From the NCBI GenBank assembly GCA_903813345.2, contig CAIIXF020000005.1:21641375-21705374 (forward strand): 64,000 nucleotides of DNA, in the 5' to 3' direction. The DNA comes from Owenia fusiformis (taxonomy: Eukaryota > Annelida > Polychaeta > Sabellida > Oweniidae). A program made the position numbers and the translations under genes. The notes below the pieces were generated by a model. It saw only the letters and a program-made list of their open reading frames with translations, did no database searches and was not told where the DNA came from. Shown one piece after another: positions 1,350 to 59,795 of the stretch (positions are counted from its first letter, which is position 1; every line of letters starts with the position of its first letter).

Positions 1350-2748
1350 ATCATACCTAATAAAGGTATGATATTGTTGTCAGCTTGACGGGTGGGCGGC
1401 GGGTGGGCGGCGTCTCACTTTTCAGCTTGTCTACAGGTTTCCAGCCAAACCATTTGACAGATTCATCTGAAATTTTCAGGAATGTTTCTTTGTATCAAAG
1501 TTAAGAACTGATTAGTTTTTGGGCAATCTGGGTAAATTTTAAGATGGCCATTTTGGATTTTCCGTCCTAAAATCTTCACTTTCAAGATTTGTCTACAGGT
1601 TTCCAGCCAAACCATTTGACGGATTCATCTGAAATTTTCAGGGATGTTTCTACGTATCAAAGTTAAGAACTGATTAGTTTTTTGGCATTCTGGGTAAAAT
1701 TTAAGGTGGCCATTTTGGATTTTCCGTCCTAAAATCTTCACTTTCAAGACTTGTCTACAGGTTTCCAGCCAAACCATTTGACGGATTCATTTGTTTGAAA
1801 TTTACAGGGATGTTTCTACATATCAAAGTTAACAACTGATTAGTTTTTGGGCATTCTGGGTAAATTTTAAGGTGGCCATTTTGGATTTTCCGTCCTAAAA
1901 TCTTCACTTTCAAGACTTGTCTACAGGTTTCCAGCAAAACCATTTGACGAATTCATCTGAAATTTTCAGGGATGTTTCTACGTATCAAAGTTAAGAACTA
2001 ATTAGTTTTTGGGCATTCTGGGTTAATTTTAAGGTGGCTTTCCATCCTAAAATCTTCACTTTCAAGACTTGTCTACAGGTTTCCAGCCAAACCATTTGAT
2101 GGATTCATTTGTTTGAAATTTACAGGGATGTTTCTACATATCAAAGTTAACAACTGATTAGTTTTTTGGCATTCTGGGTAAGATTTAAGGTGGCCATTTT
2201 GGATTTTCCGTCCTAAAATCTTCACTTTCAAGACTTGTCTACAGGTTTCCAGCCGAACCATTTGACGGATTCATTGAAATTTACAGGGATGTTTCTACAT
2301 ATCAAAGTTAAGAACTAATTAGTTTTTGGGCATTCTGGGTTAATTTTAAGGTGGCCATTTTGGATTTTCCATCCTAAAATCTTCACTTTCAAGACTTGTT
2401 TACAGGTTTCCAGCCAAACCATTTGACGGATTCATCTGAAATTTTCAGGAATGTTTCTACGTATCAAAGTTAAGAACTGATTAGTTTTTGGGCATTCTGG
2501 GTAAATTTTAAGGTGGCCATTTTGGATTTTCCATCCTAAAATCTTCCCTTTCAAGACTTGTCTACAGGTTTTCAGCCAAACCATTTGACGGATTCATCTG
2601 AAATTTTCAGGAATGTTTCTACGTATCAAAGTTAAGAACTGATTAGTTTTTGGGCATTCTGGGTAAATTTTAAGGTGGCCATTTTGGATTTTCCGTCCTA
2701 AATTCTTCACTGTCACACTGCTACGATATTGTTCACGTCTGTGCCTTG
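1350..2748 (+). mobile_element. Helentron-like element with tandem core array
   Basis: It begins in a T run with the hairpin ATCATACC-taataaa-GGTATGAT followed by ATTGTTGTC, and ends with ACGATATTGTTCACG, a small CAC/GTG hairpin and CCTTG before TT. Flanks are T on both sides and no target duplication is visible. Inside (1423-2710) are about eight units of roughly 160 bp recognised by CTTGTCTACAGGTTTCC, at about 1428, 1588, 1750, 1914, 2067, 2235, 2395 and 2556. Minus-strand open frames here are translations of the repeat. It splits a Helitron leader that resumes at 2749. No Rep or helicase gene, so non-autonomous. Confidence 0.65.
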
Positions 2749-2782
2749 TTCTTATTATTAGACTCCAGATGATAATCTGGGG
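2749..2782 (+). mobile_element. Helitron (GACTCC family) 5' hairpin fragment
   Basis: TTATTAGACTCCAGAT followed by gataATCTGG: the same 5' hairpin seen complete near 23405-23428. Its right arm runs directly into the next repeat at 2779. Confidence 0.5.
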
Positions 2783-3085
2783 GTCATTAACAGAACTTTC
2801 GCAAAGTTACGAATTTGAAATTCGTAACTTTATGAAATTCGTAAATATTTAAAAAGTTACGAATGACTTTCGAATTCGTAAAGTTAACAGAACACTTTAG
2901 TAAGTCCTTCATAAGTTTTATCATTCGTAAACGAATATTAAATTGTAACATCATCTTTTATCATTACATGTATTTAGCAAAAATAAAAATATGGTGTGAT
3001 TTGATATCATTGCGCGCTTTCAAAGATTTCAAAGATATCAAAGATTCCCAGCTCAGGAACATATTTGCTTATCATGTAGAATAGA
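2779..3085. repeat. Half copy of the GGGGGTCATTAAC MITE
   Basis: Starts GGGGTCATTAACAGAACT, then TTCGCAAAGTTACGAAT. The remainder matches, in reverse orientation, the 50840-51060 part of the complete MITE at 50568-51170 (shared CATGATAAGC-type string, GCGCGC, and the AAAGTTACGAATGAC region). The other terminus is missing. The short open frame here is not a gene. Confidence 0.6.
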
Positions 3086-6099: not shown

Positions 6100-8876
6100 G
6101 CATACCTGCCAACCTAAGACCAAAAATTTGCGGTGGTTTTTCATGAATTTTGGTATTTTTGCGGTAGATTTTTTATGTCACCACCAAAAGTGGTGACATA
6201 TTGTTATGGTCTCCGTTTTTTTATGTCACCACCAAAAGTGGTGACATATTGTTATGGTCTCCACACCAAAAGTGGTGACATATTGTTATGGTCTCCGTTT
6301 TTTTGCGACGGCGGTTGGAGGTTGGCGTCCGGCGTCTGTAACAATTTCTTACAACTTCCTATAACTTAACAAATACTGTTTAGACTGACTTCAATGTTTT
6401 TCTAAATCATCTACATGTTCTCAGAAGTTCAAATCTGACTTAGATTTGACATTTGACCTTCAATGACATTCTCAAGGTCAAAAAGGTATTTTTTCAACTT
6501 GCTTCACATTGACTAAATTTTTTTTCAAAATCATCTACATGTTCTCAGAAATTCAAATCTGACTTTAGATTTGACTTTAGATTTGACATTTGACCTTCAA
6601 ATTTGACTTTAGATTTGACATTTGACCTTCAATGACCTTCTCAAGGTCAAAAAAAGTCAAAAAGGTCTGTTTTCAACTTGCTTCAAATTGACTAAAAAAA
6701 TTTTTCAAAATCATCTACGTGTTCTCAGAAATTCAAATCTGACTTTAGATTTGACTTAAGATTTGACATTTGACCTTCAATGACCTTCTCAAAGTCAAAA
6801 AAGGTCAAAAAGGTCTTTTTTCAACTTGCATCAAATTGACTAAATTTTTTTTTCAAAATCATCTACATGTTCTCAGAAATTCAAATCTGACTTTAGATTT
6901 GACATTTGACCTTCAATGACCTTCTCAATGTCAAAAAAGTCAAAAAGGTATTTTTTCATTTTGCTTCAAATTGACTAAATTTTTTTTTCAAAATCATCTA
7001 CATGTTCTCAGAAATTCAAATATGACTTTAGATTTAACTTTAGATTTGACATTTGACCTTCAATGACCTTCTCAAGGTCAAAAAAGGTCAAAAGGGTCTT
7101 TTTTCAACTTGCTTCAAATTGACTAATTTTTTTTTTCAAAATCATCTACATGTTCTCAGAAATTAAAATCTGACTTTAGATTTGACATTTGACCTTTAAT
7201 GACCTTCTCAAGGTCAAAAAAGGTCAAAAAGGTCTGTTTTCAACTTGCTTCAAATTGACCAATTTTTTTTTTCAAAATCATCTACATCTTTTCAGAAGTT
7301 CAAATTTGACTTTACAAGTTCTCAGAAGTTCAAATCTGACTTTAGATTTGACCTTTGACCTTCAATGACCTTCTCAAGGTCAAAAAGGTCTTTTTTCAAC
7401 TTGCTTCAAATTGACTATTTTTTTTCAAAATCATCTACATGTTCTCAGAAGTTCAAATCTGACTTTTGATTTGACATTTTACCTTCAATGACCTTTTCAA
7501 GGTCAAAAAGGTCTTTTTTCAACTTGCTTCAAATTTACTTAATTTTTTTTTCAAAATCATCTACATGTTCTCAGAAGTTCAAATCTGACTTTACATTTGA
7601 CATTTGACCTTCAATGACCTTCTCAAGCTCAAAAAAGTCAAAGAGGTATTTTTTCAACTTGCTTCAAATTGACGAATTTTTTTTTCAAAATCATCTACAT
7701 GTTCTAAGAAGTTCAAATCTGACTTATGCTTATACTATTTAACTTTTGATCACTATAATATTGTGTGCAACTAGTTTTAACTTGCTTCAGATTGAACAAT
7801 TTCTTTTTTTCAAAATCATCTACAAGATCCCAGAAGCTCAAATCTTCAAAAACCTTCTTAAGGTCAAAAGGTATTTTCCAACTTGCTTTAAATTGACCAA
7901 ATTGTTTTAGGTGGTGACATTTTGTCATGTTAATGCCTTGTTTCAAAATGCGGTAGTTTTTGCGACAATTTTCGACAAAAATGCGGTATTTTTATGATAT
8001 ATTTTGAAAAAATTCGGTAGTTTTTGCGGTAGATTGTTGAAAAAATGGTACTTTTTTGGAAGTTTTTGAAAAATACGGTAGTTTAACTGTAGATTTTGAA
8101 AAAATGCAGTAGTTTTGCGGTAGATTTTTGAAAAAACAGTAGTTTTGCGGAAGATTTTGAAGAAATGCAGAAGTTTTTGCGGTAGATTTTTGAAATTAAC
8201 TGTAGTTTTGTGGAAGCTTTTAAAAAATGCGGTAGTTTTACGGTAGATTAAAAAAAATGTGGTAGTTTTTGTGGAACATTTTGAAAAAATGCGGTAGTTT
8301 TTGCAGTAGATTAAAAAACTGATTTTGCGTAGATTTTGACACACTTTAATGAATAAATAATAAAGTATGTTTTTCTAACACAGCATTCAATGAACTCTCA
8401 TAAACAGATTTGAACACTTCGGTGTTTTTATAACTACAGTATGTATATATACATGTGGTAGTTTTTGCATCACGATACTCCCCAGTGTGTTGACTGATTA
8501 CACGCCAGCTTACTTAGTTACTTACTAAGTAAGCAATACGCAATTACCACTGTCACCGACCTGCTGACACCTATTTATTTTCTGGTTGGTAATGGAATAT
8601 TACAAGGGCAATGTGGGAAGACTTCAATTTTTCAGAATTTCCAAACAATAATGGTAGATTTTAGGGTAGTTTGAACAAGAATACTGTTAATTTCAGCAGA
8701 AATACAGTAGATTTCCAAATACTTACAGTATATTTTACAGCCGTTCTTACAGATTTTTTACGTTAGTTTTTACGGGAAAAATGGTAAATTTTTTATGGTA
8801 GTTTGTCATTTTTTTACGGAAAAACAAAAATTTTACGGTAGATTCCTGTAAAAATATGGTAGGTTGGCAGGTATGC
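6100..8876. mobile_element. TIR element GCATACCTGCCAACCT with GCGGTAG minisatellite interior
   Basis: Left end GCATACCTGCCAACCT and right end AGGTTGGCAGGTATGC are perfect 16-bp inverted repeats, with AGTA-like flanks on both sides. The interior is a degenerate array of GCGGTAGTTTTTGCGG/TAGATTTTTGAAAAA units (6120-6175, 7947-8340, 8640-8860). A Helentron-like element (6175-7940) is inserted in the array. The open frame on the minus strand at 7943-8344 only translates the array. Confidence 0.6.
6175..7940 (+). mobile_element. Helentron-like element, ATGTCACCACC family
   Basis: 5' hairpin ATGTCACCAC-caaaa-GTGGTGACAT then ATTGTTATGGTCTCC; the head is partly repeated at about 6221 and 6266. 3' end is GGTGGTGACATTTTGTCATG, a CAT/ATG mini-hairpin, and GCCTTG before TTT. 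Flanks are T runs. The core is about eleven units of about 140 bp marked by ATCTACATGTTCTCAGAA and TGACCTTCTCAAGGTCA. No coding genes. Confidence 0.65.
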
Positions 8877-11476: not shown

Positions 11477-11525
11477 ATGTGCCCACCACATAGTGTGGGG
11501 CCATATTGTCGGCCTAGGCACGTCC

Positions 11526-11704
<179 letters not shown>

Positions 11705-11767
11705 CGTACATCAGACAATTTTCTCCAAAAATGCTACAGATATCACCTTCAAATTTTCAGGGGTAAC

Positions 11768-12153
11768 CAGGGGGGGGGGGAGATTTCCCAAAGATGCCCT
11801 ATCATATTAGCACTTTCGAAAACAAATTTTATAAACAGGCCTCAATTTGCCATTGAAATAGTTCTCCAAATGTTCACTGTAGTTTTATGAGTATTCTCTA
11901 CAAGTATGGATCGAGTAACTTCAATAGTATTACCGTAGGTTTGAAATGATGATGTTGAACTGATGTTAACGCCATTCCTAGGATTTCAAATTTAACTCTG
12001 CGCATGCGCAGCACTGAGAGAGCACGTGTTCATGATTGTTCACGTGATCGAATCCTGCAATTTGATTGGAGATGATGCAAGAGATGATGTAATGGGGAAT
12101 CCCCGAATACGATAGAATATGAAAGAATCATGGGAGCTACTCACTCCTCCTGA
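11768..12153. mobile_element. hAT-like MITE nested in the Helentron-like element
   Basis: Relative to the uninterrupted copy at 58605-58620 (TTTTCAGGGATAACTTA), this copy has an insert between GGGGTAAC (11760-11767) and GGGATAAC (12154-12161), an 8-9 bp duplication with one mismatch. Ends are CAGGGGGG and CCTCCTGA. Terminus and duplication length fit hAT. No coding. Confidence 0.6.
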
Positions 12154-12298
12154 GGGATAACTTATGAGTGCATACAGATGTGGATGAAAAAATTAAACTC
12201 GATACCTACTTCCTGTCAGCCATTTTGAAGTCAAATGCTAAAATCCTTATCTGCAAACTTTAAGAAAAACAGCTTTACAGTTGCTTTTAAAACTTTAA

Positions 12299-12828
12299 AG
12301 GGGCAATACCGGAAATCAGGAATAATTCCTTAGAAAAACTTCAAAATAAATCGTTGGTGCCTCAAACCTGCCCCCAAGAATGGCTACGACGTGAACTTAC
12401 TTTTGTCAAAATACCGGAGCCTGAAAAAAATCACTCACCTAGATATCAACGAAAGAAGTGTCAGTTTCGTTCGACTGCGAGAGCAAAATTGAAGCTGAGC
12501 TAAACGGTTTTCGTTTGTCGTAAAATTGACCTCATTTAACTGCGCCATCTGGCGAATGAATCATTGTTTCGTGTCATATGATTCGTTGTTTTGTGTCACG
12601 TGACCTACCTTTAGCCACCTATCGTAAGTTAATCGAATTAAAATGAATTTTTCGATCCAAGAAGAAAATTTGCACAAAAATTATAAACTCCGCTTGACAT
12701 AATCTTTGTCACTCTATCGTTTTCTTGATGAGGCACATCGGAACTTGGGATTCAACCAAGCCACAAAAAGTATGTATATTAGTTGTTCAACATGTTCAAT
12801 TGTGTTAATATTTCCCGGAACTCGGCCT
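12299..12828. mobile_element. TTAA-flanked MITE, 530 bp
   Basis: TTAA occurs at 12295-12298 and 12829-12832; the other family copy near 58740-58755 has one TTAA and no insert. Ends are AGGGGCAATACCGGAAAT and, inverted, AGGCCGAGTTCCGGGAAAT. TTAA targets are used by piggyBac and Kolobok types; the termini do not decide. Confidence 0.7.
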
Positions 12829-12950
12829 TTAATATCTTGTTCAGCTCACTTCATTCTACATCTGATTAGAACAGCGGATTATATAAAAATGGACTGTAAC
12901 AAATACCCGGATTTGTTGGTTTTTGAAAAGAGTAATTTTTTGATATCACT

Positions 12951-13062
12951 TTTTATGCCCAGCATAAAAAGTGATGTCCCATTTTATGCTGGCATAAAAA
13001 GTGATATCCCATTTTATGCTGAGCATAAAAAGAGATACTCCATTTTCTGCTGGTATTATTTA
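12951..13062. repeat. Short array of GCATAAAAAGTGAT units
   Basis: Three units of about 31-33 bp, each with ATAAAAAGTGATRTCCCATT followed by TTATGCTG, able to pair through TATGC/GCATA. Confidence 0.6.
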
Positions 13063-13159
13063 GGAAGTGATGTCTAAAGGTAGTTCAAGATTTAAGACCC
13101 ATCATTCTGACATAGATTGCTGAACTAATGTTAGTTAAAAATTCCTAATAGAATTAAGA

Positions 13160-13577
13160 ATTAATAGCTGAAACTGTTCTGTTTGCCCTAGCAAACAATA
13201 TCCCAAGATGCATTTAAAATTCATTTCTATCTATATGTGTTTACAGTCTGTGATGTCATCATCAATCATCACAATGGGAATTAGGTGAATTCTATCTGTG
13301 ACAGCGAGATTGTCTATGATGTCACATAGTAGTTTGATTTCTAAGAAATGTGGCAGAGTTCTATCTATGACAGAGATGCTTTGTGATGTCATCATGAATT
13401 ATCTCGTTTCCATTGTGATGATTGATGATGTCATCACAGATACTTTGTGATGTCATCGTGAATTACCTCATTCTATTGTGATGATTGTTGATGACATCAC
13501 AGACTGTCAACAAATAGACAGAAATGAAGTTGAAATACATGTTGGAAAATTGTTTGCCAGGGCAAAACAACTGTTTC
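13160..13577. mobile_element. TIR MITE nested in the Helentron-like element
   Basis: GAAACTGTTCTGTTTGCCCT at the left pairs with AGGGCAAAACAACTGTTTC at the right, and the inner GTGATGTCATCA/TGATGACATCAC segments extend the pairing over about 100 bp. Internal ATGTCATCA words recur several times. No transposase. Confidence 0.6.
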
Positions 13578-13589
13578 CTTTTTTATTGT

Positions 13590-14310
13590 CGGCAATTTTG
13601 GATTTTTCCGTCCTAAAATCTTGTCTGTAAAGTCTTGTCTACGCGTTTTCAGATGAACCGTTTGGTAGATCAATTTCAAATTTTCGAAAATCTAGATCTG
13701 ATTAGTTTTTGGGCATTCTGGGTAAATGTCAAGGCAGCCATTTTGGATTTTCTGTCCTAAAATCTTTTCTGTAAAGTCTTTTCTACGTATTTCCAGGTGA
13801 ACCGTTTGGTAGATCAATTTCAAATTTTCAGGGTGATTCTTAGTATGAAAATCTAGATCTGATTAGTTTTTTGGCATTCTGGATAAATTTCAAGGCAGCC
13901 ATTTTCGATTTTCGGTCTTAAAATCTTGCCTGTAAAGTCTTGTCTATGCGTTTTTAGGTGAACCGTTTGGTAGATCAATTTCGAATTTTCAGGGATGATT
14001 CTTAATATGAAAATCTAGAATTGATTAGTTTTTTGACATTCTGGGTAAATTTCAAGGCAGCCATTTTGGATTTTCCATCCTAAAATCTTGTCTGTAAAGT
14101 CTTGTTTACATGTTTTCTGGTTAGCTGTTTGACGGATCAATTTCAAATTTTCAGGGGTGGTTCTTAGTATTAAAATCTAGAACCAACTGAATTTTGGGCA
14201 TTCTAGGTAAATTTAAAGGCCGCCATTTTTGATTTTCCGTCCTCAAATTGTGTCGGTAAAGTCTTGACTACTCATTTTCAGGATAACCATTTGTCGGGAT
14301 CACTAATTGG
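13590..14310 (+). repeat. Core tandem array of about 165-bp units
   Basis: About four units marked by GCAGCCATTTTGGATTTTCC, AAAGTCTTGTCTACG and GATTAGTTTTTGGGCATTCT. The same core occurs at 58850-59750, 1423-2710 and 61355-61915. Confidence 0.7.
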
Positions 14311-14335
14311 TGGGGACATTTTGTACTTGTTCTTG

Positions 14336-14650
14336 TTTAAAAATGATGGTGTATTTCCCATTTACTTGGAAGATGGTCGTCTGTGTATCATTTAGATTGG
14401 TTGATTTGATATACACCAAAAGTGAGTAGACATACATGTACATTGTCTTTAGTCAAAATGGGGAAGTCCTTAAAAGAGTCCACTACGAGTGATTGCAGTT
14501 CACTCGTACAGTTCCCTTTTTTTTGGGCATTTTATTAGCAAATGACATTTTCCCGCCTACTGATTGTGACTTACAGTATATGTAAAAATAAAATAAAAAA
14601 ATGATAAAAAAATTATTCATTGACAAAAATGACGCCTGTCATATGAAGAT
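14336..14650. other. Flank of SWIM-relic repeat, then LINE approach
   Basis: The first about 70 bp continue the repeat interrupted at 11476 (shared GATGGTGTATTTCCCAT and GTGTATCATTTAGATTGG words, inverted at 33800-33870). The remainder holds nothing recognised. Confidence 0.5.
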
Positions 14651-14820
14651 TAAATGATTGTACAACAATCATTTCAATTCTGCATGTACATTTATATGAA
14701 TGTATAGTACAGTTAGTACTCCTATGCAGAGGCAGTAAGCATGGGAAACCCTCGCAAATCTCGAACTGGACTGAAGTTATAAACACTGATCAGTGTGATA
14801 GCATCTCAAACACAGAATGT

Positions 14821-16092: not shown

Positions 16093-16094
16093 AA

Positions 16095-22101: not shown

Positions 22102-23426
22102 CTAGATTGGTAAATTGAACAAAGTTCAATAAACAATGAACAAAGTTCAATTTAAGACTCCAGATTGATTTACTTGAGTAAAGAGCTGAGTAAGTAACTG
22201 AGTAGGAAGCTGAGTAAGTAGACGATTAAGTAATTGAGTAAGTAGCTGAGTAGGTAGCTGAGTAAGCAACTGAGTAGGTAGCTGAGTAGGTAGCTGAGTA
22301 CGTAGCTGAGCAAGTAGCTGAGTAGGTAGCTGAGAAGTACAGGGTGTTCAAAAAAACGCAACCCAAAGAAATCACTATATCTTGAAAAATATTGGTTCAA
22401 TTATGTTCATATTTTCAGGAAATAAAGAAGAGACTGTGTATGTATAGCTCCTGTAAATGGTTAGTTGTAAAACATGATGCCTTGGACACCTGCTCAAAAG
22501 ACAGTTGAACTAGGAAAATACGAAAAACGTAGTCAGGGGTGACTGCAACCGCAAAAAAATTAAATAACTTCCTAACCGTAGTGTTTTGGCTCTTCAAATT
22601 TGGCACAAATCATCTTCATTCACTGTATGGTAAATCTGTAGAGTGAAATCAAAATCACTTCAGGGACTTCACAGTCATGGTTGAAATGCTTTCAAATCGC
22701 AGTCAAACGCCCTGGTTCAGGGAGACTTACGAAGGCATTTTGACCATGACTGTAAAGTCCCTGGAACGATTTTGATGAAACTCCACAAATTCACCACACA
22801 TTAAATGAGGATAATTTGTGCCAAATCTGAAGTGCCAAAACACCATGGTTAGAAAGTTATTTGGTTTTATTGCTGTGGCAGTCACCTCTGACTACGTTTT
22901 CATATTTTCCAATTTCAGCTGTCATTTTAGCAGGTGTCCAAGGCATTATGTTTTACAACTTACTGACGAACGGAGCTATACAAACACAGTCTCTTCTTTC
23001 TTTTCCTGAAAAAATGAACATAATTGAATAAGTAATTTCCAAGATATAGTGATTTTCCATTCACGCTTTTCGTATTTTGCTAGCATATCTGCCTTTTGAG
23101 CTAGTGTCCAAGACATCATGTTTTACAACTAACTAACAACATGGGCTATACATACACAGCCTCTTCTTTCTTTCCTGAAAATATGAACATAATTGGATTA
23201 GTATTTTCCAAGATATAGCGATTTCTTTGGGTTGCGTTTTTTTTTTGAACACCCTGTAGGTAGTTAAGTAGGTGGCCGAGTAGGTATGTAGCCGAGTAGG
23301 TAAATTGACTGAATAATGATCTTTATTGGAAGCCTTATGGTTATCGAGAAAACTGGGAAAGAATAATAAAGAATAAAGAATACTGACGAAAACAATAGAC
23401 TCCAGATTTACATCTGGAGTCTAATA
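22102..23426 (-). mobile_element. Helitron-like element, GACTCC family, interrupted copy
   Basis: On the minus strand the 5' hairpin is AGACTCCAGAT-gtaa-ATCTGGAGTCT (about 23402-23428), followed by a TTCTTTATTATTC leader. The 3' end has ATCTGGAGTCTTAAA, hairpin TTGAAC-ttt-GTTCAA and CTAG (22102-22105) before TTAT. The body is an array of CTACTCAGCTACTTA units (plus strand GTAGCTGAGTAGG, about 22175-22335 and 23259-23310), broken by a mariner-like MITE. The open frame of LLSY repeats translates the array. TC/CTAG ends with a subterminal hairpin are Helitron hallmarks. Confidence 0.7.
22338..23258. mobile_element. Mariner-like MITE with duplicated inverted interior
   Basis: TACAGGGTGTTCAAAAAAAC at the left, GTTGCG-rich and TTGAACACCCTGTA at the right; TA on both ends. 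The about 300 bp after the left end pair with 22740-23055, and a third partial copy follows at 23065-23250, so the arm is present three times. The minus and plus open frames with MPNLK starts are two arm copies. No transposase. Confidence 0.7.
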
Positions 23427-24547: not shown

Positions 24548-24557
24548 TATATATATA

Positions 24558-25718: not shown

Positions 25719-25909
25719 CTATACCTAAATTGACCATATAATAGTCTTGAAAAGATACCTTATTCACCTTTCCACAAAGTAAAGCAAATTGATAATTTCC
25801 AATAAATGTCGTCAATGCCTGAAAGTTTTGAAGAATTAGTACAGCCAGCATAGGAATATTTTGATTTAACTGCAATAAAAAGGATTCTATTTGCCCAATG
25901 CACTAATTA

Positions 25910-27535
25910 TTCCATTGAACGAAGTTCGGAGGGATATAGGGAACGCCTCTGTCCGTCAGTCTGTCTGTCTGCCATTTTGAAAAATGGCCACCATTTTTAC
26001 GTGTGTTATTTAACATTTACTGAAAGTCAAAAAGTAGTGGAGCGATTTTGTTCATATTTGTTATGTGAATACTTTAAGCATGGCCCAATGTCTAATGACA
26101 CTTTGGGTAGTAGGCGGTCATTTTTCAAAATGGCTGCCATTTTTACTTGTGTTATTTTACATTTTTTACTCTTAACTCAAAAAGTAGTAGAGCGATTTTG
26201 TTCATATTTTATATGTGAAAAATATAAGCATGGCACACTGTCTAATGACACTTTGGGTAGTAGGCGGCCATTTTGAAAAATGGCCTCTGTTTTTTGTTAC
26301 ATTTTTTACTATAACTTGAAAAGTAGTGGAGCGATTTTGTTCATATTTGATATGTGAATACTTATGAGCCTTGCACACTGTCTCATGACACTTCGCTTAG
26401 TAGGTGGCCATTTTAAAAAATGGCTGTAATTTTTACATTTTTTACTATAACTTGAAAAGTATTGGAGCGATTTTGTTCATATTTGATATGTGAATACTTT
26501 AAGCATGGCACATTGTGTAATAAAACTTTTGGGAGTAGTCGGCCACCATTTTTATGTGTATTATTTTACATTTTTATAATAATTCAAAAAATTATACAGC
26601 GATTTTGTTCATACATGTATTTGATATGTGAATACTCGTAAAGATTGCATACTGTCTTATGACATTTTGGGTAGTAGGCGGCCATTTTAAAAAATGACCA
26701 GCATTTACATGTATGTGTGTGCGATTTTTAAAATTTTTTATATGTGGCTACTTAAAAGCATATTACTTCTTCTGATGACAACTTGGCTAGTGAGCAACCA
26801 TTATGAAAATGTTGGCCTTTCTTATGGGTGTTATTTTATATTTGCTATATATTTTGTTTGCTATATACTTTTTGGCGTTGCCGTTGTTCTGGTTATTTTT
26901 AATCACATATGAAATATGGACTGGGCACTTTCATTCCCAAATCTTATGTAATTTAATTTAATCATTATTTGACAGAACTATTGTTATCCCATCAAATGAA
27001 GTTCGGAGGGATATAGGGAACCTCCGTCCGTCCGTCCAGGCAATAACTCAAATACCCTTGGCCAGATTTTGTTCATGGTAGAAGTTCAGCTCGTAAGCTG
27101 ATTTTCAAAATGGCTGCTCATTTAAAAATTGCGGCCATTTTACAGATTATACAGTTATTAAGGTACAGTATGTAAAACTGTAATAGCAATATGTTTTAAA
27201 TGTAAAAAACTTAGTAGGACAAATAGGACATTAATAAAGCTAGAAATGTAGGTATTAAAGAAGCACATGGCAGCCTTCTTGAAAAATGGCAGCCTTTACT
27301 TGCTATTTTACAATTTTTGCTGTGACTCAAAAAGTAGTAGATTGTTTTTGTTCATATTTGGAATGTGAATACTCTAATAAGCATGGCACACTGTCTAATG
27401 ACACTTTTGGTAGAAGGGGGCCATTTTGAAAAATGGCCGCCATATTAATGTATTTTACTATAACAGGAAAACTAGTGGAGCGATTTTGTTCATATTTGGT
27501 ATGTGAATTGGTAGAAGGCGACCATTTTAGTTTTA
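25910..27535 (+). mobile_element. Helitron (GAACGAAGTTCG family) 5' pieces, two starts
   Basis: 5' ends at 25910 (TCCATTGAACGAAGTTCG) and 26987 (TCCCATCAAATGAAGTTCG), each followed by GGAGGGATATAGGGAAC and a TCCG/TCTG tract. The body is a tandem core of about 130 bp with CATTTTGAAAAATGGC and AGTAGTGGAGCGATTTTGTT. No 3' end precedes exon 28531-28640, so these are fragments, not a whole element spanning the exon. The MAAIF-type open frames come from the core. Confidence 0.6.
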
Positions 27536-37785: not shown

Positions 37786-38904
37786 AGCTCACATGGTGAG
37801 CTTTTGCAATCGCTCACTTGTCCGTCTGTCTGTCCGTCCGTCCGTCCGTCTGTCTGTCCGTCAACAATAGTGGCACGTTTTAAAACCTCTGTCGATAGGA
37901 TTCCTGTTTTAAGTTATTTCTGTTCAACATCAATACAGAAAACTCCCCTATGACTCCTGGTTCAAAAGCTCGCCTATTTTCAAAATGGCCGCCATTTTTG
38001 TCTCGCGAAATTCACTTTTGACCTATTTCCTAGCTTTACAAATAACTTCAAGTGTGCTACATTGTTAAAATCCATGTCAATGTAAAGAGTAGATGTATGA
38101 AATAATTTTGTTACGAAAAATCAGCAAAAAATTATATCCATTTTTTTTTATTTTCAGCCATTTTAGTTAACATTGATTTGTCCATCTGTCTCGCAAAATC
38201 CACTTTTGGACCATTTGCCTTAAACCCTCTGTCGATAGGATTCCTGTTGTAAGTTAACTTTGTTCAACATCAATACAAAAAACTCTCCTATGACTCTTGG
38301 TTCAAAAGCTCGCCTATTTTCAAAATGGTCGCTATTCTTGTCTCGCGAAATTCACTTTTGGCCCATTTCCTAGCTTTACAAATAATTTCAGCTGTCCTGC
38401 ATTGTAAAAAGCCATGTCACTGTAAAGAGTAGTTGTATGAAATAATTTTGTTACAAAAAATCGGCAAAATACTATATCTGTTTTTTTTATTTTCAGCCAT
38501 TTTAGTTAACATTGATTCGTCCATCTGTCTCTCAGTCAGTCCAAAATAGTGGCAAGTTTTAAACCTCTGTCAACACTTGGCTCTTTTTAAATCCTCTGTA
38601 GATAGGATTCCCGATTTAAAATATTTTTGTTCAACATCAATAAAGAAAAAAAACCTGTGACTCCTGCTTCAAAATCTCGCCTATTTTCAAAATGGCCACC
38701 ATTTTTGTCTCGGGAAATTCACTTTTGGCCCATTTCCTAGCTTTACAAATAAGTTCAGGTGTCCTGCATTGTAAAAAGCCATGTCTTTGTAAAGAGTAGT
38801 TGTATGAAATAATTTTGTCACAAAAAATCTGCAAAAAATTATACCCGTCTTTTTTATTTTCACTTTTGAGCAACACCATATGAGCCCAGTACCCACGGTA
38901 CTGA
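37786..38904 (+). mobile_element. Helitron-like element, AGCTCAC family
   Basis: 5' hairpin AGCTCAC-atg-GTGAGCT after TTATT, then GTCCGTCTGTCTGTCC. The core has three units of about 340-365 bp marked by CCTCTGTCGATAGGATTCC and CAAAATGGCCGCCATTTTTG. The 3' end has ATATGAGC and hairpin CAGTACC-cac-GGTACTG, then ATTATT. A core scrap is also at 40860-40925. Minus-strand open frames are from the core. Confidence 0.6.
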
Positions 38905-41114: not shown

Positions 41115-41979
41115 AAAGGAGCACGTAGGTTATCGCAAACAATTTCAGAAGGTTACATCTCGGATTTTGACTGATTTCTGACAAATGAAGACAGGTTTAT
41201 CTTTTAGATCAATGCATTATCTCAAAGAAAATTATATACAGTAATAATAAAGTCAAACAAACTCAGAGATATTTAACTAGCAATAAACCCATCAACACAC
41301 TTTTTCAAAGATGTTGACCCCATTTTCACCAAAAGTGCAATCATTTTTTACAATGTTTAATGCATTACTATTCTTTATTTTGATGTATCAAATACACGAG
41401 GGGAAAGTGAACCCGTGTATATACAACCTACTGCCGAGCAAGACACGCATATACCGCCTATCAAATGTTTGGTTAACTACATCTCATAGGAAAAAGGACA
41501 ATAAAGGTAATATTGGACCTCTATCAATTCCCTTGGATGGTTAGAATCATTACTAAGATGTTCTAGCAGGCGGAATTAGCCTAGAATTATAGTTGAAATA
41601 TATTTGTTATGTCCAAATTAAGAGATAAGTTAAACCTATAATGGTTTTCGATTTGTTTTTCTCATTCATACTCACTTTAATTGAAATTGAGCGATCCAAT
41701 GTTATCGGACATCGGACCCGATGTGATCAAAGAGTAATATTATAAAGATCCAAAAATATCTTGAGTAAATGATCTCAGAATCCGAACATTACTTGAGAAA
41801 AATCTGTTGAGATCCGATTATATCATCGAGTCTGTGACATGCTGATGATGAAATAGTGTTTGTGTTACTTTTGGGAGTTTTCGAACCTTGATTTAATTGC
41901 CTTTATTAGAAGGGTTACTTGTTATTATCCCAACGAACGAAGTTCGGTAGGGATATAGTGAAGCCCTCCGTCCGTTGAA

Positions 41980-42408
41980 TTGAAAGAATTGAAAAAACTT
42001 GGAATGATAAATATAGAAGATAATGATAGACTACACACACAACTTAAAATTACTCTGGAGGACAGAATCCAATCAAAACTCAGGAAAAACAATAAACTAA
42101 AAACCAAGAATAGGAAAAAGAAACCAACCAAATTCTGTAAAATACTATTTGAAAACAAAGCAGTAGAAGTAATCAACATTGCAAATATCTTAAGAGATGA
42201 AGAAGTGATCAAGACAATACCTCCAAGTATCAAAAATAAGGAACCACCAGGAATTGTCTATATATACACTAAGCCAATAAGGAATAAATTGTTCAACTAT
42301 AGTGAGATTACAGAAAGTATCGACGAAGGCAACAATATAGGAGAATGTGATTGTAATACATCTGAATTTAAGGATGAAGACCATGGTCACGTCATATGGG
42401 AAATCTGA
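41980..42408 (+). pseudogene. PLE-type RT, N-terminal block
   Basis: About 142 residues: a lysine-rich start (DRIQSKLRKNNKLK), GIVYIYTKPIRNKLFNYSE, and ECDCNTSEF then DEDHGHV, a Cys-x-Cys...DxDHGH motif that I associate with this RT group. The frame ends at HVIWEI; the next block begins about 90 bp later, so there is at least one disruption here. The first codon listed is TTG, not a real start. Confidence 0.6.
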
Positions 42409-42501
42409 AGATTATACAAAATTCAAAATTGAGAAAGCTATTCAGTAAAGGTCCTGGCTATAGAGAAAAACGTAATGAGAAAATAGAGAGAAAATACTGT
42501 A

Positions 42502-43275
42502 ATGGAAAAGGTGAAACAAAAGATTGAGTTACTTCAAAATAAAAAATTTAGACACATTAAAAATCCAAAGCAGACACTAAAGGACCAAAATGCTATGGAA
42601 GAACTCAATCAACTCAAGGAAAAATATGCCATTGTACCTATTGATAAGGCAGCAAATAATATTGGGTTTATGTGCAAACAATACTACATAAAGAAGATTA
42701 AAGAGGAAATTGGAAATGACACCTATCAAAGGATAGAAGATAAAGAAGAAGAAGATATAGTGAAGGAAATCAAAGAGACAATGAAAACAAAATTCAAGAT
42801 TGAACCGGGAGAAGAACAAAATATTATACCAAGGATTCATCTTACAATTAAAATACATAAACAGCCAATTAAATTTAGATATATCATTGGCTCAAAGAAA
42901 AGTTCTGTAAAACCAGCTGCCAAAAAACTGACCAAAATTCTTAAACTAGTGCAATATACTAACAAAAGATACTGTGAGAAGATTAAGGATTATACAGGTG
43001 CCAATAGGATGTGGATTAGCGACAATAACCAAAATATGTTAGATAACATAAAAAGTGTAAATTTAAGGAATGGGGCAAGGAACATAGCCTCGTATGATTT
43101 CTCTACACTATACACAAAGATTAATCTAACTGACATAAAGGAAAAACTGAAATGGGTTATAGATAAAGCCTTCAGAGGAGGAACTAACCAAAAGATAACA
43201 GTAGGCGGAGATGAAGCCAAATGGGGTGGAAAGGCGGATAATAAAAAAGGCAAATACCAAAGGAGAGTGCAATGA
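42502..43275 (+). pseudogene. PLE-type RT, DKx motif and first RT motifs
   Basis: Contains KYAIVPIDKAANNIGFMCK (the D-K motif upstream of RT1 in Penelope-like elements; here DKA), IPRIHLTIKIHKQPIKFRYI (RT1-RT2) and IASYDFSTLYTKI, where the DFSTLYT segment carries the first catalytic Asp. The frame is lost within a glycine-rich stretch near 43190-43260, overlapping the next block in another frame. Confidence 0.7.
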
Positions 43276-43960
43276 TCTAGTGGATTTCATCGTAGACACA
43301 GCCTACTTTAAAGCAGGGAAATCAATTCTAAGACAGAAAATTGGAATACCGATGGGAATCGATCCGGCGCCATATATGGCAAACCTATACTTATACAGTT
43401 ATGAATTTCAAGCCATTGAGAAAATGTATAGGGAAGACTACTCCAAAGTACTAAAATATGCTAAAACTACAAGATTCATCAATGATTTATGTACAATAAA
43501 CAATGACGGAGAAATGGAGACTGATATGAATAACATCTATCCTGAAGAACTAGTGTTAAACAAGGAAAATGAGAAGGATACAGAAACAACTTTTCTGGAC
43601 ATACAAATGAAAATAGTAAATAAACAAATCACAACAAAACTATACGACAAAAGGGAAAACTTCAATTTCCAAATAGTCTCATATCCAGATTTATCCGGAA
43701 ATATTCCTAGAAACCAGTCCTATGTAATAGTCATATCACAAATAATAAGGATTTCAAGAATCTGCAGTCATATGGAAGATGCAACAAACAGAGTTACCAG
43801 CCTGGGAAATAAACTACAACGTCAAGGTTACAGGAGTAACATACTAAATTCATATACTAAGAAAGCTATAACAAGAAATAAATGGATATGTACTAAATAC
43901 GATATGCAGGAGAATATCATCATGAAGCACTGGAAAATTAATGAGAGAAGTGAACATTAA
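43211..43960 (+). pseudogene. PLE-type RT, catalytic and thumb block
   Basis: NDLVDFIVDTAYFKAGKS, QKIGIPMGIDPAPYMANL (RT motif 4) and RFINDLCTINNDG: the catalytic pair normally written x-D-D reads N-D, so the first of the two Asp is replaced. Downstream TTFLDIQMKI, YDKRENFNFQIVSYP and the RISRICSHMEDA segment match the C-terminal part of the group. With the Asp loss and frame breaks this copy should be inactive. Confidence 0.7.
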
Positions 43961-44926
43961 CAAATGTAAATGAAACAGTATATTCTCCGCAAAGAGGGTA
44001 AACTAAGAAGACAGATCAACATAAGAACATCAGTCAGGGGAAGGGGAGAGTTTTCCGGCCGGATCAAAACGTTTAACCCACCTACGCGCAGTCTCAAGTC
44101 TGTGGACCCTGAAGAAAGATAACTAACATCACAATCAAATCAAGACAAAGAAAGAAGACAAAGAAAGAAGACAATGAATGAAGAAACTAATGCAGCAACA
44201 ACAAATGACGTCAGTCCGTCCGTCCGTTCGTCTGTTCGTCTGGAAGATAACTCAAATACTAGTAGACGGATTTTCTTCATATTTAGCGGAAAGATGTGTA
44301 TTGGTGAATAGTTTTAAGCAAAAAAAATTTTTTCAAGATGGCCGCCGCTTTAAAAATGACGGGACTTTTTCGCAAAAATCATAAATTTTTCATTCTAAAC
44401 CAAAGTAATTAATATTATTGTTTGAAATTTTTGTAGTATATTCACAACATTTATCTATTTCACATATATTCCGTGTTTTTCATCCTGACCCCCAGGGGCC
44501 CTGTATGGGGGGTCAGGAAAACAGAAATTTTCGCTAATTTTTAGATCTTTCTGAAGTATAGCTTTATTACACTCAAATGAAAAGCAATTAAGAGTAGATT
44601 GCAAATATTGTATCTTTTTTCTGATTCGAGCCTCGTAAAATTCAAAATGGCCGTCTAATGTATGATTACGCAATAATTTTTCGATCCCTTCAAAGTATGG
44701 CTATATTATACTCATATTGAAGGGATTTTGGAGTAGATCACAATTATGGTATAATTTTTCAGATTTGTACCTCAGAAAATTCAAAATGGCTGCTTTGCAG
44801 GAATTCGCAATTCTAAAATCTAATTTTTTCAATTTTAACCAAAATAATGAGTATAATTGATTGGAATTCAGTAATTGATATTTTGTTCGTTGGGATTTGC
44901 TACTCCGCGGAGTTGCCGTTATCTAG

Positions 44927-49508: not shown

Positions 49509-49562
49509 GTAGCTTCCTTTAAATATAACATTATCAATTAGGTGAACAATATACTGTTATAA

Positions 49563-49847
49563 TCCTACCGAACAAAGTTCGAGGAGGACATAGGAAAGAG
49601 TAAATCACAATTATGGCATTGTTTTTCTGATTTGTGCCTCAGAAAATTCAAAATGACTGCCTAGAGCAAGAATTCGCCATTACTTAGAGATATCTTTAAA
49701 GAATGGTTACATGATACTACAATAATCTCAAGTATTTATTGAAGGGAAGAGTAGTTGGTAAATATTACATTGTGACTCACTGTACAGATTCATGATTTAT
49801 ATATTGTTTGTTGGGATTTGCTACTCAGTGGAGTTGCCAATTTCTAG
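49563..49847 (+). mobile_element. Helitron (GAACGAAGTTCG family), complete short copy, 285 bp
   Basis: A|TCCTACCGAACAAAGTTCG at the start; GTTTGTTGGGATTTGC, hairpin CTCAGTGGAG, TTCTAG before TT at the end. One short core piece (CAGAAAATTCAAAATGAC). The (TCYG)n tract is missing. A and T flank the two ends as expected for Helitrons. Confidence 0.8.
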
Positions 49848-53317: not shown

Positions 53318-53999
53318 TATCTATTTTACCTAACCATATGAGAAAATATAGCACAAGCTTATTATTACAGTGTAGTAGTCACTGGTATGTTGACAGTCAA
53401 GAAGTACATATCAGGGTCAATGTGCTGTAAACACTGGACTCTTCACATCAATTTTACTCTATTCATTTGATTTCTCAGAACAGTATAATGAAGGGAGAAT
53501 ATGAACGAGAGTGTAATCAATGAGATTCCAGCACATTTATGATACAGATTATTAAGTACTCACCATGATTCAACAATTAAATGAGCCCGTCTCTGTCGCG
53601 ATTCACATTGACTTGTAATGTGTTCAGATTTTGCCGCGAAAATCTGCCCTACTCTGACGTCAGAGATTCTAGATTTGCTAATTATAATATTCATGAGCTG
53701 ACTTTGTGGAAAGGTGAATACTCTTTTATGATCAATATTTAATCCTGCTGACTCTTGGCTCATACAGGCAAATTAGTGACAAAAACAAATGTCAACTTAA
53801 TTGACATTAACAGACAGAATTAGCAAGACATGAGGTTATTGCAAACAATTTTAGATACAAGTGAAGATGTGATGATTGGATATTGTTCCAGATTATGTAA
53901 GAATTGCATCATTGACATTAATGTCTTGTTTTTATAACATTTTTGATATAATTACTAATTTCCCTCCTTGATCATGTAAATTACTAGATTAAATAATTA
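53318..53999. other. Intronic, nothing recognised
   Basis: A minus-strand frame (53560-53763) shows no THAP cysteine pattern. No other feature. Confidence 0.35.
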
Positions 54000-55177
54000 T
54001 CCCACCGAACGAAGTTCGAGGGGATATAGAAAAGCCGTTTGTCCATCCGTTCGTCCATCCATCCCTCCATTCGTCCGGCCGTTTGTGTGTCCAGGCAATT
54101 ACTCAAATACCGGTTGACGGATTTTGATCAAATTTTATAGGCTTTATACCTTATGTGTGTAGGACCACCGCTCGAGAAGGAATTTTCAATATGGTCACTA
54201 AATTCAAAATGGCGGCCATTTTTCAGAAAAATATAATCTTTGATAACTCTAATACTAGTGAATCGATTTGGTTCAAATTTTATATGCTGTTGCCTGGGTA
54301 CAAAAGAACCTTGCCCAAGAAGATTTTCAAAATGGCCGCCATATTTCAAAATAGCGGCCATTTTTCGTAAAAAAACGTTATCTTTGATAACTAAAATACC
54401 ATTCAACGGATTTGGTTCAAATTTTACATGCTGATTCCAGGGACATAGGAGCTCTGCTCAAGAAGGGATTTTCAAGATGGCAGCTAAATTCCAAAATGGC
54501 CACCATTTTTCATAAAAGAACGTAACCTTTGATAACTCAAATACCAGTTTATGGATTTGGTTCAGATTCTATATGCTGATGCCTAGAGACTAAGAAGTTC
54601 TGCTCAAGAAGACATTTTCAAGATGGCCACTGAATTTCAAAATGGCCAGTGGATGGATTTGGTTCCAACTTAATATGCTGATGTTTAGGGAAAAGGGAGA
54701 TCTGCTATAGAAGAAATCTCAAAGGCGTCAGCTGAATTTCAAAATGGCTGCCATTTTTATAAAAAAAGGTAATCTTTGATAACTCAAATACCATTAGACG
54801 GATTTACTTCAAATTTTATATACTGATGCCTAGAGATAAAGGAGTTCTGCTTGAGAATAAATTTTCAAGGTGGCTGCTATTTATCAAAATCTCCGCCATT
54901 TTTCATTAAACATGTAATCTAAATAAATCAAGTACCAGTAGACTGATTTGGATTAAATTCTATATGCTGATGCCTTGGGACATAGGAGCTCTGCTAAAGA
55001 AGAAATCTAAAGATGACTGCAGAATTTCAAAATGGCAACCATGTTTCACAAAAACATAATCTTTGATAATTCAAATACCAGTGGATGAATTTGGCTCAAG
55101 TTTTATGTTGCTGCTATTTATCAAAACATGTTTTGTTCGGTGGGATTTGCTACTCCGTGGAGTTGCTGTTTTTCTAG
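54000..55177 (+). mobile_element. Helitron (GAACGAAGTTCG family), complete, 1178 bp
   Basis: 5' A|TCCCACCGAACGAAGTTCG, then GGGGATATAG and a TCCA/TCCG tract; about eight core units (GATAACTCAAATACCAG, GATTTGGTTCAAATTTTATA, CAAAATGGCCGCCATTTTTC); 3' GTTCGGTGGGATTTGC, hairpin CTCCGTGGAG, GTTTTTCTAG|T. The first 12 and the 3' 12 bases (TCCCACCGAAC/GTTCGGTGGGA) are inverse repeats. Non-autonomous. The FKMAAIF frames come from the core. Confidence 0.85.
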
Positions 55178-55390
55178 TTTCAGTTAAATAAAGTAAAATA
55201 AAAGATTTTATAAGCAAAGTTGTTTTAATACTGAATGTGTAATTTCAAGTCTATCTGCTATTACATGTTAAAGGTAATTGTTTTGGAAATATTTTGAAGT
55301 TATGTAATACTTGTATATGTTTAGGTTCAATTATATCAGGTGACAATAGATTAATTAAATAATACCACCTTTTGAAGTAAGAGTAAAATA

Positions 55391-56100: not shown

Positions 56101-56109
56101 ATGTTGCAA

Positions 56110-57240: not shown

Positions 57241-57249
57241 TGAATTAAG

Positions 57250-57318
57250 GTTAGCTGACACTGGGGCTGCTGATGAGAATGAGGTGGACTGGACAGCATT
57301 AGCTAAGGACTGGCCTAG
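57250..57318 (+). CDS. DMTF1: DMTF1 exon (middle of Myb repeat 3)
   Basis: 69 bp, acceptor TTTGAATTAAG, donor CTAG|gtaata. It completes the Arg codon and ends with two bases of Ser. The peptide is RLADTGAADENEVDWTALAK then DWP, corresponding to RIAELDVADENDINWDLLAE of vertebrate DMTF1. ADEN and the conserved Trp are kept. The exon begins GTTAGC, the same six bases that follow CAG in the minisatellite directly upstream. Confidence 0.93.
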
Positions 57319-58493
57319 GTAATAAATGATACACTCAATTCTACAATGTAAATGGGTACTTCATCTATATAGATGCATTCCTGATGAATTGCCTGAGTTA
57401 ATGAATAATGTGAAAAAAAGGAAGTGAAAAGGCCAATAGGATTGAGTCTATATGACAGATGTATTTAGTAGGGTTGTTGCAAAATCGACTGCGACAACCT
57501 AGTCCCGACACCAACTTACTGTAAATTGATACTATAATTTTATATTTCCTAAATTTATTTTTCGGAATAAATTGACTATCTAACCACAAACTATTCCAGA
57601 TGAAAAACAAGTGTATTAATGCATTAAAAAGATTTCCACATATACGTGATTATTTGATATCAGATTTATTTCATTTATAACAATAAAGACATGTTTTTTT
57701 AATAAGTTTATATAATTTACGAACAGACAAAAAGCTCATCAATCCTGACTTTTTTATGCATTGGATTTCTGTACAATGAACCGATTACTTTTAAACAGTT
57801 TTTGCAAGCAATTGCAAATTTAACTCCTGGCTAATGATTTGACCCTATTATATGGTCAACTTATTATTATATATGAATATGATAAGTAGCAGTTACTATT
57901 CATATTTATGAGTTGGTCATAAAATAGTGGGTCAAGTTGTCACAAATCGTACACAAAATTTACAAATCGTAAGCTGACAGCACAGGCAATTAAATTCTGT
58001 ACAGCGTTTGAGGTGTTTTTGCTCAGAGGCCAGGAATTTTGGTCAGCTGATTTTTTCTTAGTGTTTTACAATTGCCTCCTATTCATTTATCAATTAAAAT
58101 ATTAACTGAGACTTTGATTTCGTCATCTTTGGAATTTTCTTATGAATTTCTCTCACAATTTCATGATACGATTTTTTTGTCTTAGTGTTGTTTTTTGAAA
58201 ATTGGACACATTCTAAGAATATCCATGATATCAGGAATAATTAATTTTATGTAACAACTTGAATATCATTTTTATATGATCCATATATTTTACTTAATGC
58301 ACATAAAAAATTGGGTTGATAGGATAGGTTTTTAAGAAATCATGACATTTTTAAAGGGTTCTGTTTTTTGGGTCACCCTGAAGATATGCTTCCAATGCCA
58401 TATTCCAATAGGGTTGCACGGAGTAAATAAATGGGAGGAAAAGACCACATGATATTAGGGTGCATGCCATTGCCAATGCCTGAATACTTTTTT
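57319..58493. other. Intron; small inverted repeat only
   Basis: 57838-57950 holds an inverted repeat (GACCCTATTATATGGTCAAC against GTTGGTCATAAAATAGTGGGTC in shorter pieces). GGGTCACCCTGAAG at 58370-58383 resembles a decayed mariner-like right end. Otherwise nothing. Confidence 0.4.
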
Positions 58494-59795
58494 ATGTCCC
58501 CACCACATAGTGTGGGGCCATATTGTCGGCCTAGGCTTGTCTGTCAGTCCGTACATACGGCAGTTTTCTCCAAAACCGCTACAGATATTGCCTTCATATT
58601 TTCAGGGATAACTTAGGAGTGCATACAAATGTGGATGAAAATTTTTTTACTCGATACCTACTTCCTGTCGGCCATTTTGAAGTCAAATGCTAAAATCCTT
58701 GTCTGCAAACTTTAGGAAAACGGCTTTACAGTTGCTTTTAAAACTTTAAAATCTTGTTCAGCTCACTTCATTCTACATCTGATTAGGTTTTGGACCTGTC
58801 AGCTCAGTCATGGCAGCCATTTTGCATTTTCTGGTTAACTGTTTAATGGATCAATTTCAAATTTTCATGGATGATTCTTTGTATAAAATCTAGAACTGAT
58901 GATTTTTGGCATTCTTGGTAGATGTCAAGGCAACCATTTTGGATTTTCCATCCTAAAATCCTGTCTGTAAAGTCTTGTCTACACGCTTTCAGGTGAACCG
59001 TTTGGTAGATCAAATTCAAATTTTCAGGGATGATACTTAGTATGAAAATCTAGAACTGACTAATTTTTTGGCATTCTGGGTAAATTTTAAGGTGGCCATG
59101 TTGGATTTTTCGTCCTAAAATTGTGTCAGTAAAGTCTCGTATACTCATTTTCAGGATGACCATTTCACGGATAATTTTCAAATTTTCAGGGGTGATTTTT
59201 CATATGAAAATCTAGATCTGATTAGTTTTTCGGCATTCTGGATAAATGTTAAGGCAGCCATTTTGGATTTTCTGTCCTAAAATCTTTTCTGTAAAGTCTT
59301 GTCTATGCATTTTCAGGTTAACTGTTTGAGGGATCAGTTTCAAATTTTGGGAATGATTTCTAGTATGAAAATCTAGAACCGATTTCTTTTTAATCATTCT
59401 GCGTAAATTTTAAGTTGGCCATTCTGGCTTTTCCGTCCTAAAATCGTGTCTGTAAAGGCTTGTTTACCCAGGATAACTGTTTGACAGATCGATTTCTAAT
59501 TTTAAGTAATGATTTATAATATGAAAACCTAGAACTAATTAGTTTTTCGGCATTCTGGGTAAATGTTAAGGCAGCCATTTTGGATTTTCAGTCCTAAAAA
59601 CTTGTCTTTTCTTTTTCAGGTTAACCATTTGAGGGATCGATTTTTCTGGGATGATTCTTAGTATGAAAATCTTGGAACTGATTTTTCTCTGATAATCTTG
59701 TCTTTTCAACTGATTTGTGTAAGGCATTAAGGATGAAAAATTTGCAGTATAGAGGATCACCCATTGGTGGGGACATGTACACATTTGTGTTCTTG
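58494..59795 (+). mobile_element. Helentron-like element, ATGTCCCCACC family, copy 2
   Basis: 5' hairpin ATGTCCCCACC-acatag-TGTGGGGCCAT then ATTGTCGGCC; 3' end GGTGGGGACAT, hairpin ACACA-tt-TGTGT, TCTTG before T. Five or six core units of about 165 bp at 58850-59750. It lacks the three inserts of copy 1, so it serves as their empty-site reference. Confidence 0.75.

Follow-up and report, generated by a model that had tools for sequence, protein, structure and literature searches.

Helentron-like repeat families of Owenia fusiformis: arms matched across both ends, and end-sharing coding partners for two families

What are the repeats that crowd a 64,000-nucleotide stretch of the annelid Owenia fusiformis (C5:21641375-21705374; hereafter the window), and which parts of their ends are kept matched? 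A reading made from the letters alone had described six families, here F1 to F6, as Helitron/Helentron-like elements with one terminal plan: a 5' arm, a local complement able to form a hairpin with it, a tandem core, and a distal complement of the arm near the 3' end. It further proposed that the arm switches between its two complements. We read the six listed families, scanned tandem repeats, mapped end motifs on both strands of the window, and searched the 498-Mb genome, with each genome motif count paired with a reversed-sequence control of its pattern. The elements are very likely HINEs (repeat families of non-autonomous Helentrons) that come from autonomous Helentrons and are mobilised by partners with the same ends, with a subterminal inverted repeat (subTIR) matched across the two ends.

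The assignment to Helentrons and HINEs was supported by coding partners for two families, and the autonomous Rep/helicase elements with the same ends that the sequence-only reading had suggested looking for were found for F1 and F2. In this genome, the Helitron_like_N profile matched 58 times; 14 control genomes gave no match. Two coding partners of ~12 kb each carry F1 or F2 ends and encode Helitron_like_N and PIF1 in one open frame. The F1 partner (C1:4661045-4673245) has its F1 5' end 6.1 kb upstream of the Helitron_like_N match (13 kb read) and contains a GTCY tract, 162-bp repeats, and an F1 3' end whose arm matches at 11/11 positions, with 2 mismatches in the 22-base tail. Its frame of 2,053 amino acids (aa) includes DUF6570, Helitron_like_N, PIF1, and a C-terminal Exo_endo_phos domain (E 1e-5), which completes the set of Rep, helicase, and endonuclease between F1 ends. 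The F2 partner (C11:29198331-29210187) has an F2 5' end in two tandem copies, F2-type repeats, and an F2 3' end matching at 11/11; its Rep lies at C11:29204960, and Rep and PIF1 were identified in a 2,424-aa frame with Helitron_like_N. Matches at C6:5181419 and C10:10908056 have scores identical to those of the F2 partner. A third Helentron, at C1:21115714, encodes OTU, DUF6570, Helitron_like_N, PIF1, and Exo_endo_phos, and its tandem array extends past the stretch read. Tying two HINE families to coding Helentrons by shared ends makes activity and specificity testable. Separately, open frames that run for 3,000 aa or more without a break hold 23 of the 58 Helitron_like_N matches (C13, C515, C505, and other contigs), 17 of them on contigs numbered 13 or higher; such long intact frames suggest recent activity.

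The F2 partner sits inside an F6c element, and a partner-free F6c copy (L031) serves as its empty site (294/328 aligned). The empty site reads GTTTTATGATA, and the filled site reads GTTTTT[element]TATGATA. At this one site, nothing is duplicated except perhaps one T, and it is ambiguous where in the run of Ts the break falls. The 5' TC and A|T insertion of canonical Helitrons were not found, with no A|T site at the empty site examined.

Two kinds of scan looked for the plan without reference to family. With 8-bp arms, the plus strand of the window gave 57 hairpins, and a copy of the arm within 5 kb downstream was found as the complement in 21 and as the arm itself in 22 (4 and 2 in reversed controls); the other three strands were similar. 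Arm copies are thus enriched over reversed letters, without preference for the complementary orientation. A scan for the whole plan returned 72, 71, and 128 candidates on strands W+, W-, and B- (reversed controls, 15-33), while same-strand arm copies numbered 152, 103, and 132, matching or exceeding the inverted ones. We rejected the blind scan as a detector of the plan, since same-strand copies were as common as inverted ones or commoner. Because such scans are unspecific, we traced the families by their own ends.

Traced in this way, the ends proved abundant. Two F2 arms 4-30 bases apart occur at 2,698 places (reversed control, 0); at least one fetched stretch matched by this pattern, L003, is not a 5' end. 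F2 5' ends gave 1,671+683 matches, where one site can match more than once, and F2 3' ends gave 845+838, both with a control of 0. The F1-type pattern matched 607+646 places (control, 3+8). For F6, there were 1,353+1,414 5' ends, 678+702 F6a/b 3' ends, and 732+727 F6c 3' ends, each with a control of 0. Analyses of individual F1, F2, and F6 places, here and below, used listings drawn from the first part of contig C1. With tandem 5' copies merged and a 3' end sought on the same strand no more than 4 kb downstream, 34 of the 56 listed F2 5' loci had a linked 3' end (median distance, 1,581 bp), and none of the 56 showed the wrong order or strand. Most of the stretches named by the sequence-only reading are HINEs. 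An origin from unrelated palindromic minisatellites or miniature inverted-repeat transposable elements, alike by chance or capture, would fit cores that are mostly different tandem repeats, and it would fit the failure of the blind scans to separate the plan from ordinary repeats. However, the high copy number against controls of 0 for the F2 and F6 patterns, the fixed 5'-to-3' order of the ends, and coding partners with those same ends make this origin highly improbable.

The terminal plan held for F1, F2, F5, and F6, while F3 and F4 fit only in part. In window copies, the arm and 3' arm agree at 11/11 positions in F2, in one F1 copy (58494), and in F5, at 10/11 in the other F1 copy (11477), and at 12/12 in F6a. 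F1, F2, F5, and F6a to F6c have a subTIR that is identical at the two ends over 11-12 bp (consensus or window copies), together with a partial inverted repeat complementary to the 5' subTIR; the local hairpin of the F2 window copy is 10 bp. The F5 element, placed at 22102-23426 by the sequence-only reading, stood as a family but lies on the minus strand, with its 5' end at ~23422 and its 3' end at 22102. Elements start with a T run followed by ATGTC (F2), ATCCC (F6), or similar. A 3' palindrome lies between the 3' subTIR and the end in F1, F4, F5, and F6, and the predicted 3' stem of F2 takes in part of the arm. The expected CTAG or CTTG termini were seen as CTTG in F1, F2, and F3 and as CTAG in F5, F6a, and F6b, but F6c ends in CTGG (3/4 fetched). 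CTAG and CTGG fit the canonical 3' CTRR; CTTG does not. The F4 3' arm matches at 11/13 in the window copy, which has no close CTAG or CTTG after the 3' hairpin, and at 12/13 in a second copy, which has CTAG 17 bases on. A second F3 copy was absent from the 200-kb block and from the other stretches examined alongside. The families had been called unrelated in sequence, and their cores do mostly differ, but the arm frame ATGT..CCACC and CATATTGT are common to F1 and F2, and by eye the 162-bp unit of F1 resembles that of F3.

The arm and its distal complement change together. F6 consists of three subfamilies: position 7 of the arm is C, A, or T, and the 3' arm has G, T, or A, respectively. Of the arm letters, our F6 5' pattern allowed variation only at positions 6-7 and in the middle of the local arm, and the F6a/b 3' pattern only at two positions; with the other letters fixed, covariation could be visible only there. 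Among the 100 5' ends listed, positions 6-7 read AT in 62, AA in 19, AC in 18, and GT in 1, and the F6a/b 3' arms among the matches listed were GTTCGGTGGGAT and GTTCGTTGGGAT only. The F6c 3' arm was sought as the complement of the F6c arm, GTTCGATGGGAT, with up to 2 mismatches. It was present without mismatch in 4 of 5 fetched stretches, and the tail had A at 1,459 places versus another base at 4. Linking ends on one strand no more than 5 kb apart gave 58 elements, with arm and distal arm reading AT-AT (38), AA-TT (9), AC-GT (9), GT-AT (1), and AT-TT (1). Position 7 was complementary in 57 of them; the shuffle mean was 29.9, and 0 of 100,000 shuffles reached as high.

The same holds between families. 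Arm position 6 is C in F1 and A in F2, and the distal arm carries the complementary base in each case (G and T); F1 tails with a base other than G at this partner position occur at 14 places. The F1 3' pattern used here was built from L034, L035, and L037 (three of five fetched F1 stretches); an earlier one, taken from the diverged copy at 11477, matched itself alone. Taken together, F6 and F1/F2 provide three changes of state, not dozens, and matching of the arm with the distal arm across subfamilies is supported.

The local arm, unlike the distal arm, does not keep full pairing. The F1-to-F2 change at position 6 is matched here too, in all three arm copies. F1, however, has a T-C mismatch at position 4 (arm T fixed by the pattern, local base free) that is nearly fixed, with local C in 91 of 92 F1 places. 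These 92 came from 100 listed places after eight were excluded by eye, namely, seven F2-like places and 12937989, probably a decayed F1. In F6, where the pattern constrained the outer and inner five pairs, the middle of the local arm is mostly GGA, GGTA, or GAGG/GAGA, giving a central bulge, and no subfamily consensus pairs fully. Compensation in the local arm is clear in one of the three changes of state, and the compensatory arm changes inferred from the window hold for the distal arm more than for the local one.

Individual copies give a similar picture. In 61 F2 places (overlapping rows merged by hand), both arms were at consensus in 42, and the 39 departing pair positions were broken in 30, wobble in 8, and compensatory in 1; two places with almost no recognisable arm (10010368 and 14327655) contribute 10 of these departures. 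Among the 92 F1 places, 12 had changed arms; 12 positions were changed on one side only, each of them losing its pairing, and 1 pair was changed on both sides. Arm mutations that break pairing at least as often as they keep it, the outcome the sequence-only reading had set against itself, were thus seen for the local hairpin in individual F1 and F2 copies. Such breaks are expected of dead insertions. We rejected within-family covariation as evidence of structure, since arm changes in F1 and F2 mostly break the local hairpin.

Does the matching reflect a selected single-stranded structure, as had been proposed? The matching itself is there, but inverted protein-binding sites would covary equally, so it is no proof. 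Recognition of one site shared by the two ends accounts for the matching with no need for pairing, and this is the reading we prefer. A stricter version, in which the subTIR consists of double-stranded protein-binding sites only, the arm hairpins are irrelevant, and the local arm is a decaying relic, appears doubtful. It would account for a site that stays matched at both ends while the centre of the local arm drifts and for mutations of individual copies that freely break the local hairpin. However, F1, F2, F4, F5, and all three F6 subfamilies retain a local complement, the position 6 change between F1 and F2 is matched in the local arm as well, and the published Cg_HINE and FoHeli ends likewise have a 5' complement or hairpin.

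Using DNA parameters, we modelled folds of the joined ends for six consensuses. The arm is predicted to pair with the distal arm in F1, F6a, F6b, and F6c (mean probability, 0.95-0.97), where the distal stem encloses the junction CT-N-G|TT; F1 and F6a leave this junction unpaired. The predicted partner of the arm in F2 and F5 is the local arm (0.88 and 0.99). Isolated duplex energies, which ignore the closing of the long loop, favour the distal arm in 7/7 consensuses. These models make an arm switch possible for some families and unlikely for others. In such a switch, the 5' arm would pair first with the imperfect local arm and then with the perfect distal arm, enclosing CT-N-G|TT. The idea draws on the distal choice in F1 and the F6 subfamilies, on the persistently imperfect local arm in exactly these four, and on joined ends published for a Helitron2 relative (PMC5148889). 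Against it, the perfect local arm wins in F2 and F5, the joined end of F6b and F6c lies in or beside a small secondary pairing in the best folds instead of simply in an open loop, the folds assume two Ts between the ends and naked DNA, and a single protein-binding site per end accounts for the data equally well. We consider the switch unlikely, and as a general feature of the families, it is unsupported, although folds favour it in four of six consensuses. Its specific form for F1 and F6, with their imperfect local arms, seems slightly less likely still: the three arm copies would act as a state-dependent switch, with a weak 5' hairpin in the donor and a perfect 11-12 bp stem at the joined ends enclosing the nick site CT-N-G|TT. 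If true, it would let Rep tell a finished circle from a donor end.

In the account that we consider very likely, the HINEs arose from autonomous Helentrons by deletion or by replacement of the core, and an end-sharing coding partner supplies the Rep/helicase/endonuclease that moves them in trans. The subTIR, with one copy per end, is made up of the 5' arm and the reverse complement of this arm close to the 3' end; it is most likely where a single Rep protein recognises the two ends and brings them into synapsis. The local complement, which is weaker, would fold the arm into a 5' hairpin upon strand displacement, the 3' hairpin would halt the helicase, and the joined strand would insert at T-rich sites. 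For protein recognition, the hairpin roles, and the circular intermediate, we infer from published Helraiser and Fusarium work.

Several observations weigh against this account. Only two changes of state underlie the 58 linked F6 elements, whose large number reflects descent and not independent events. The single discordant element of the 58 has its ends 3,050 bp apart, and these may belong to different elements. Of the listed 5' ends, 42/100 in F6 and 22/56 in F2 have no linked 3' end, four F6 neighbours are in the wrong order or strand, and 2/37 listed F2 3' arms are off consensus. F3 has a perfect local hairpin, but its 3' arm matches at only 7/9 positions, short of the subTIR length seen elsewhere; the exact 3' end of F4 is unsettled. 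In the F2 partner, 5 kb including the endonuclease region lay outside the sequence read. The third Helentron has no exact copy of the window arms in the 15 kb read, its ends lying beyond, and no partners for F3, F4, F5, or F6 were found in a search limited to three Rep loci.

The arm plan is already in print for Cg_HINE, Drosophila DINE-1, other HINEs, and fungal FoHeli. Cg_HINE elements of Crassostrea gigas (Vojvoda Zeljko et al. 2020, PMC7492417) are described with an 11-12 bp subTIR, a 7-12 bp complementary inverted repeat after a 1-12 bp spacer, a GTCY-type microsatellite in several elements, a tandem core, a 3' subTIR, and a 3' palindrome. Their authors state that these HINEs were not relatable to any autonomous element, and a second oyster study, in its available portions, reports no autonomous elements detected in oyster. 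The accessible parts of PMC7492417 contain no arm covariation test, while here two families have partners and the two complements behave unlike each other. Helentrons and HINEs (Thomas et al. 2014, PMC4067079) and DINE-1 (Yang and Barbash 2008, PMC2374699) likewise have subTIRs, a partial inverted repeat beside or within the 5' subTIR, a 3' stem-loop, a TT preference, families defined by subTIR sequence, and an endonuclease-bearing Rep/Hel partner with the same ends; relative to the available text of these papers, the matched single-base changes in three sister subfamilies are the difference. FoHeli, a Helitron2-type element of Fusarium oxysporum (PMC5148889), shares the 5' hairpin and a 12-bp inverted repeat shared with the 3' end, and its joined ends were detected by PCR, but it is fungal, with TCAG...ATTTT termini and insertion between TNAT and T (FoHeli1, 2). 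Canonical Helitrons such as Helraiser (PMC4778049, PMC5876387) share Rep and helicase, a 3' hairpin acting as transposition terminator, and a circle that joins both ends; they differ in 5' TC, A/T insertion, and ends described there as having no similar inverted sequences. No published test of Helentron arm covariation or joined-end hairpins turned up in a literature whose subscription journals were thinly covered. To the known plan we add coding partners for two families and a clear contrast in behaviour between the distal complement and the local one. As the matched single-base changes suggest, families are set apart by their subterminal repeat, with the local hairpin being looser; this narrows what the transposase must read.

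The elements and ends mapped in the window are listed in Table 1.

TABLE 1 Helentron-like elements and ends in the window (window positions; a', complement of the arm)
Feature	Position	Strand	Details
F2 HINE	6175..7940	+	arm 6175-6185, local a' 6190-6199, ~148-bp tandem core, 3' a' 7910-7920, CTTG at 7940
F2 6175-7940, extra tandem copies of 5' terminus	local a' 6238-6247; partial copy 6272-6281	+	
F1 HINE	58494..59795	+	arm 58494-58504, local a' 58512-58521 (one mismatch), 162-bp core, 3' a' 59766-59776, CTTG
F1 HINE, more diverged	11477..14335	+	arm 11477-11487 (1 change), 3' a' 14309-14319, CTTG
F1 HINE 11477, internal parts	(GTCT)n 11522-11704; 162-bp core 13686-14293	+	
F6a HINE	53999..55177	+	arm ATCCCACCGAAC 53999-54010, local a' 54014-54025, hairpin, CTAG
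F6a 3' a'	55135-55146	+	GTTCGGTGGGAT
F6b HINE, new to list	41927..44926	+	arm ATCCCAACGAAC 41927-41938, 3' a' GTTCGTTGGGAT 44885-44896, CTAG
F5 HINE	22102..23422	-	arm 23422-23412, local a' 23407-23397, 3' a' 22165-22155, hairpin, CTAG at 22102
F4 HINE-like	37786..38903	+	self-complementary arm 37786-37802, (GTCY)n, repeats, 3' arm 38874-38886 (11/13), 3' hairpin
F3 HINE-like	1350..2748	+	arm 1350-1357, local a' 1365-1372, 162-bp core, weak 3' arm 2720-2727, CTTG
Short F6 element, 286 bp	49562..49847	+	degraded arms, CTAG
F6c element	25909..26894	+	5' arm ATTCCATTGAAC and F6c local arm; end placed only by tail similarity to F6c 3' end
Further F6c 5' end	26986		
F6 3' end	29946-29988		
F5 3' end	31433	+	
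Decayed F5 3' end	30336	+	6 mismatches
Tandem F5 5' ends	27959-27839	-	

Some 5' termini are repeated in tandem. The first ~48 bp of F2, with its T tract, occurs two to three times over in several copies, such as window 6169-6304, and also at C1:7060706, 9864777, and 9995380 and in the coding partner at C11:29198331; there were 5 extra tandem 5' copies among the 61 listed places. F5 likewise has a tandem 5' terminus with ~60-bp units (window 27839-27959, minus strand). Multiple 5' termini are reported for some FoHeli copies (PMC5148889). The F6 5' hairpins have a GAA loop (CGAAC GAA GTTCG) in L028, L030, L031, and the window copies at 53999 and 41927, as do FoHeli1 and FoHeli2 in the same report, which is either a shared Helitron2 feature or a coincidence.

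The F6b element, whose variable arm position is complementary between the arm and the 3' a', encloses long reverse-transcriptase-like frames at 42487-43960 that are Penelope-like by eye; it may have captured a retroelement or been hit by one. Elsewhere, 14647-20763 holds two long frames of 484 and 844 aa that resemble, by eye, a LINE endonuclease and reverse transcriptase. Directly 3' of the F2 end, 7945-8312 is a degenerate 30-61 bp tandem array of the GCGGTAGATTTTTGAAAAA type, and the F2 5' end is preceded by sequence similar to this array by eye. With array-like sequence on both sides, the F2 element may have inserted into the array.

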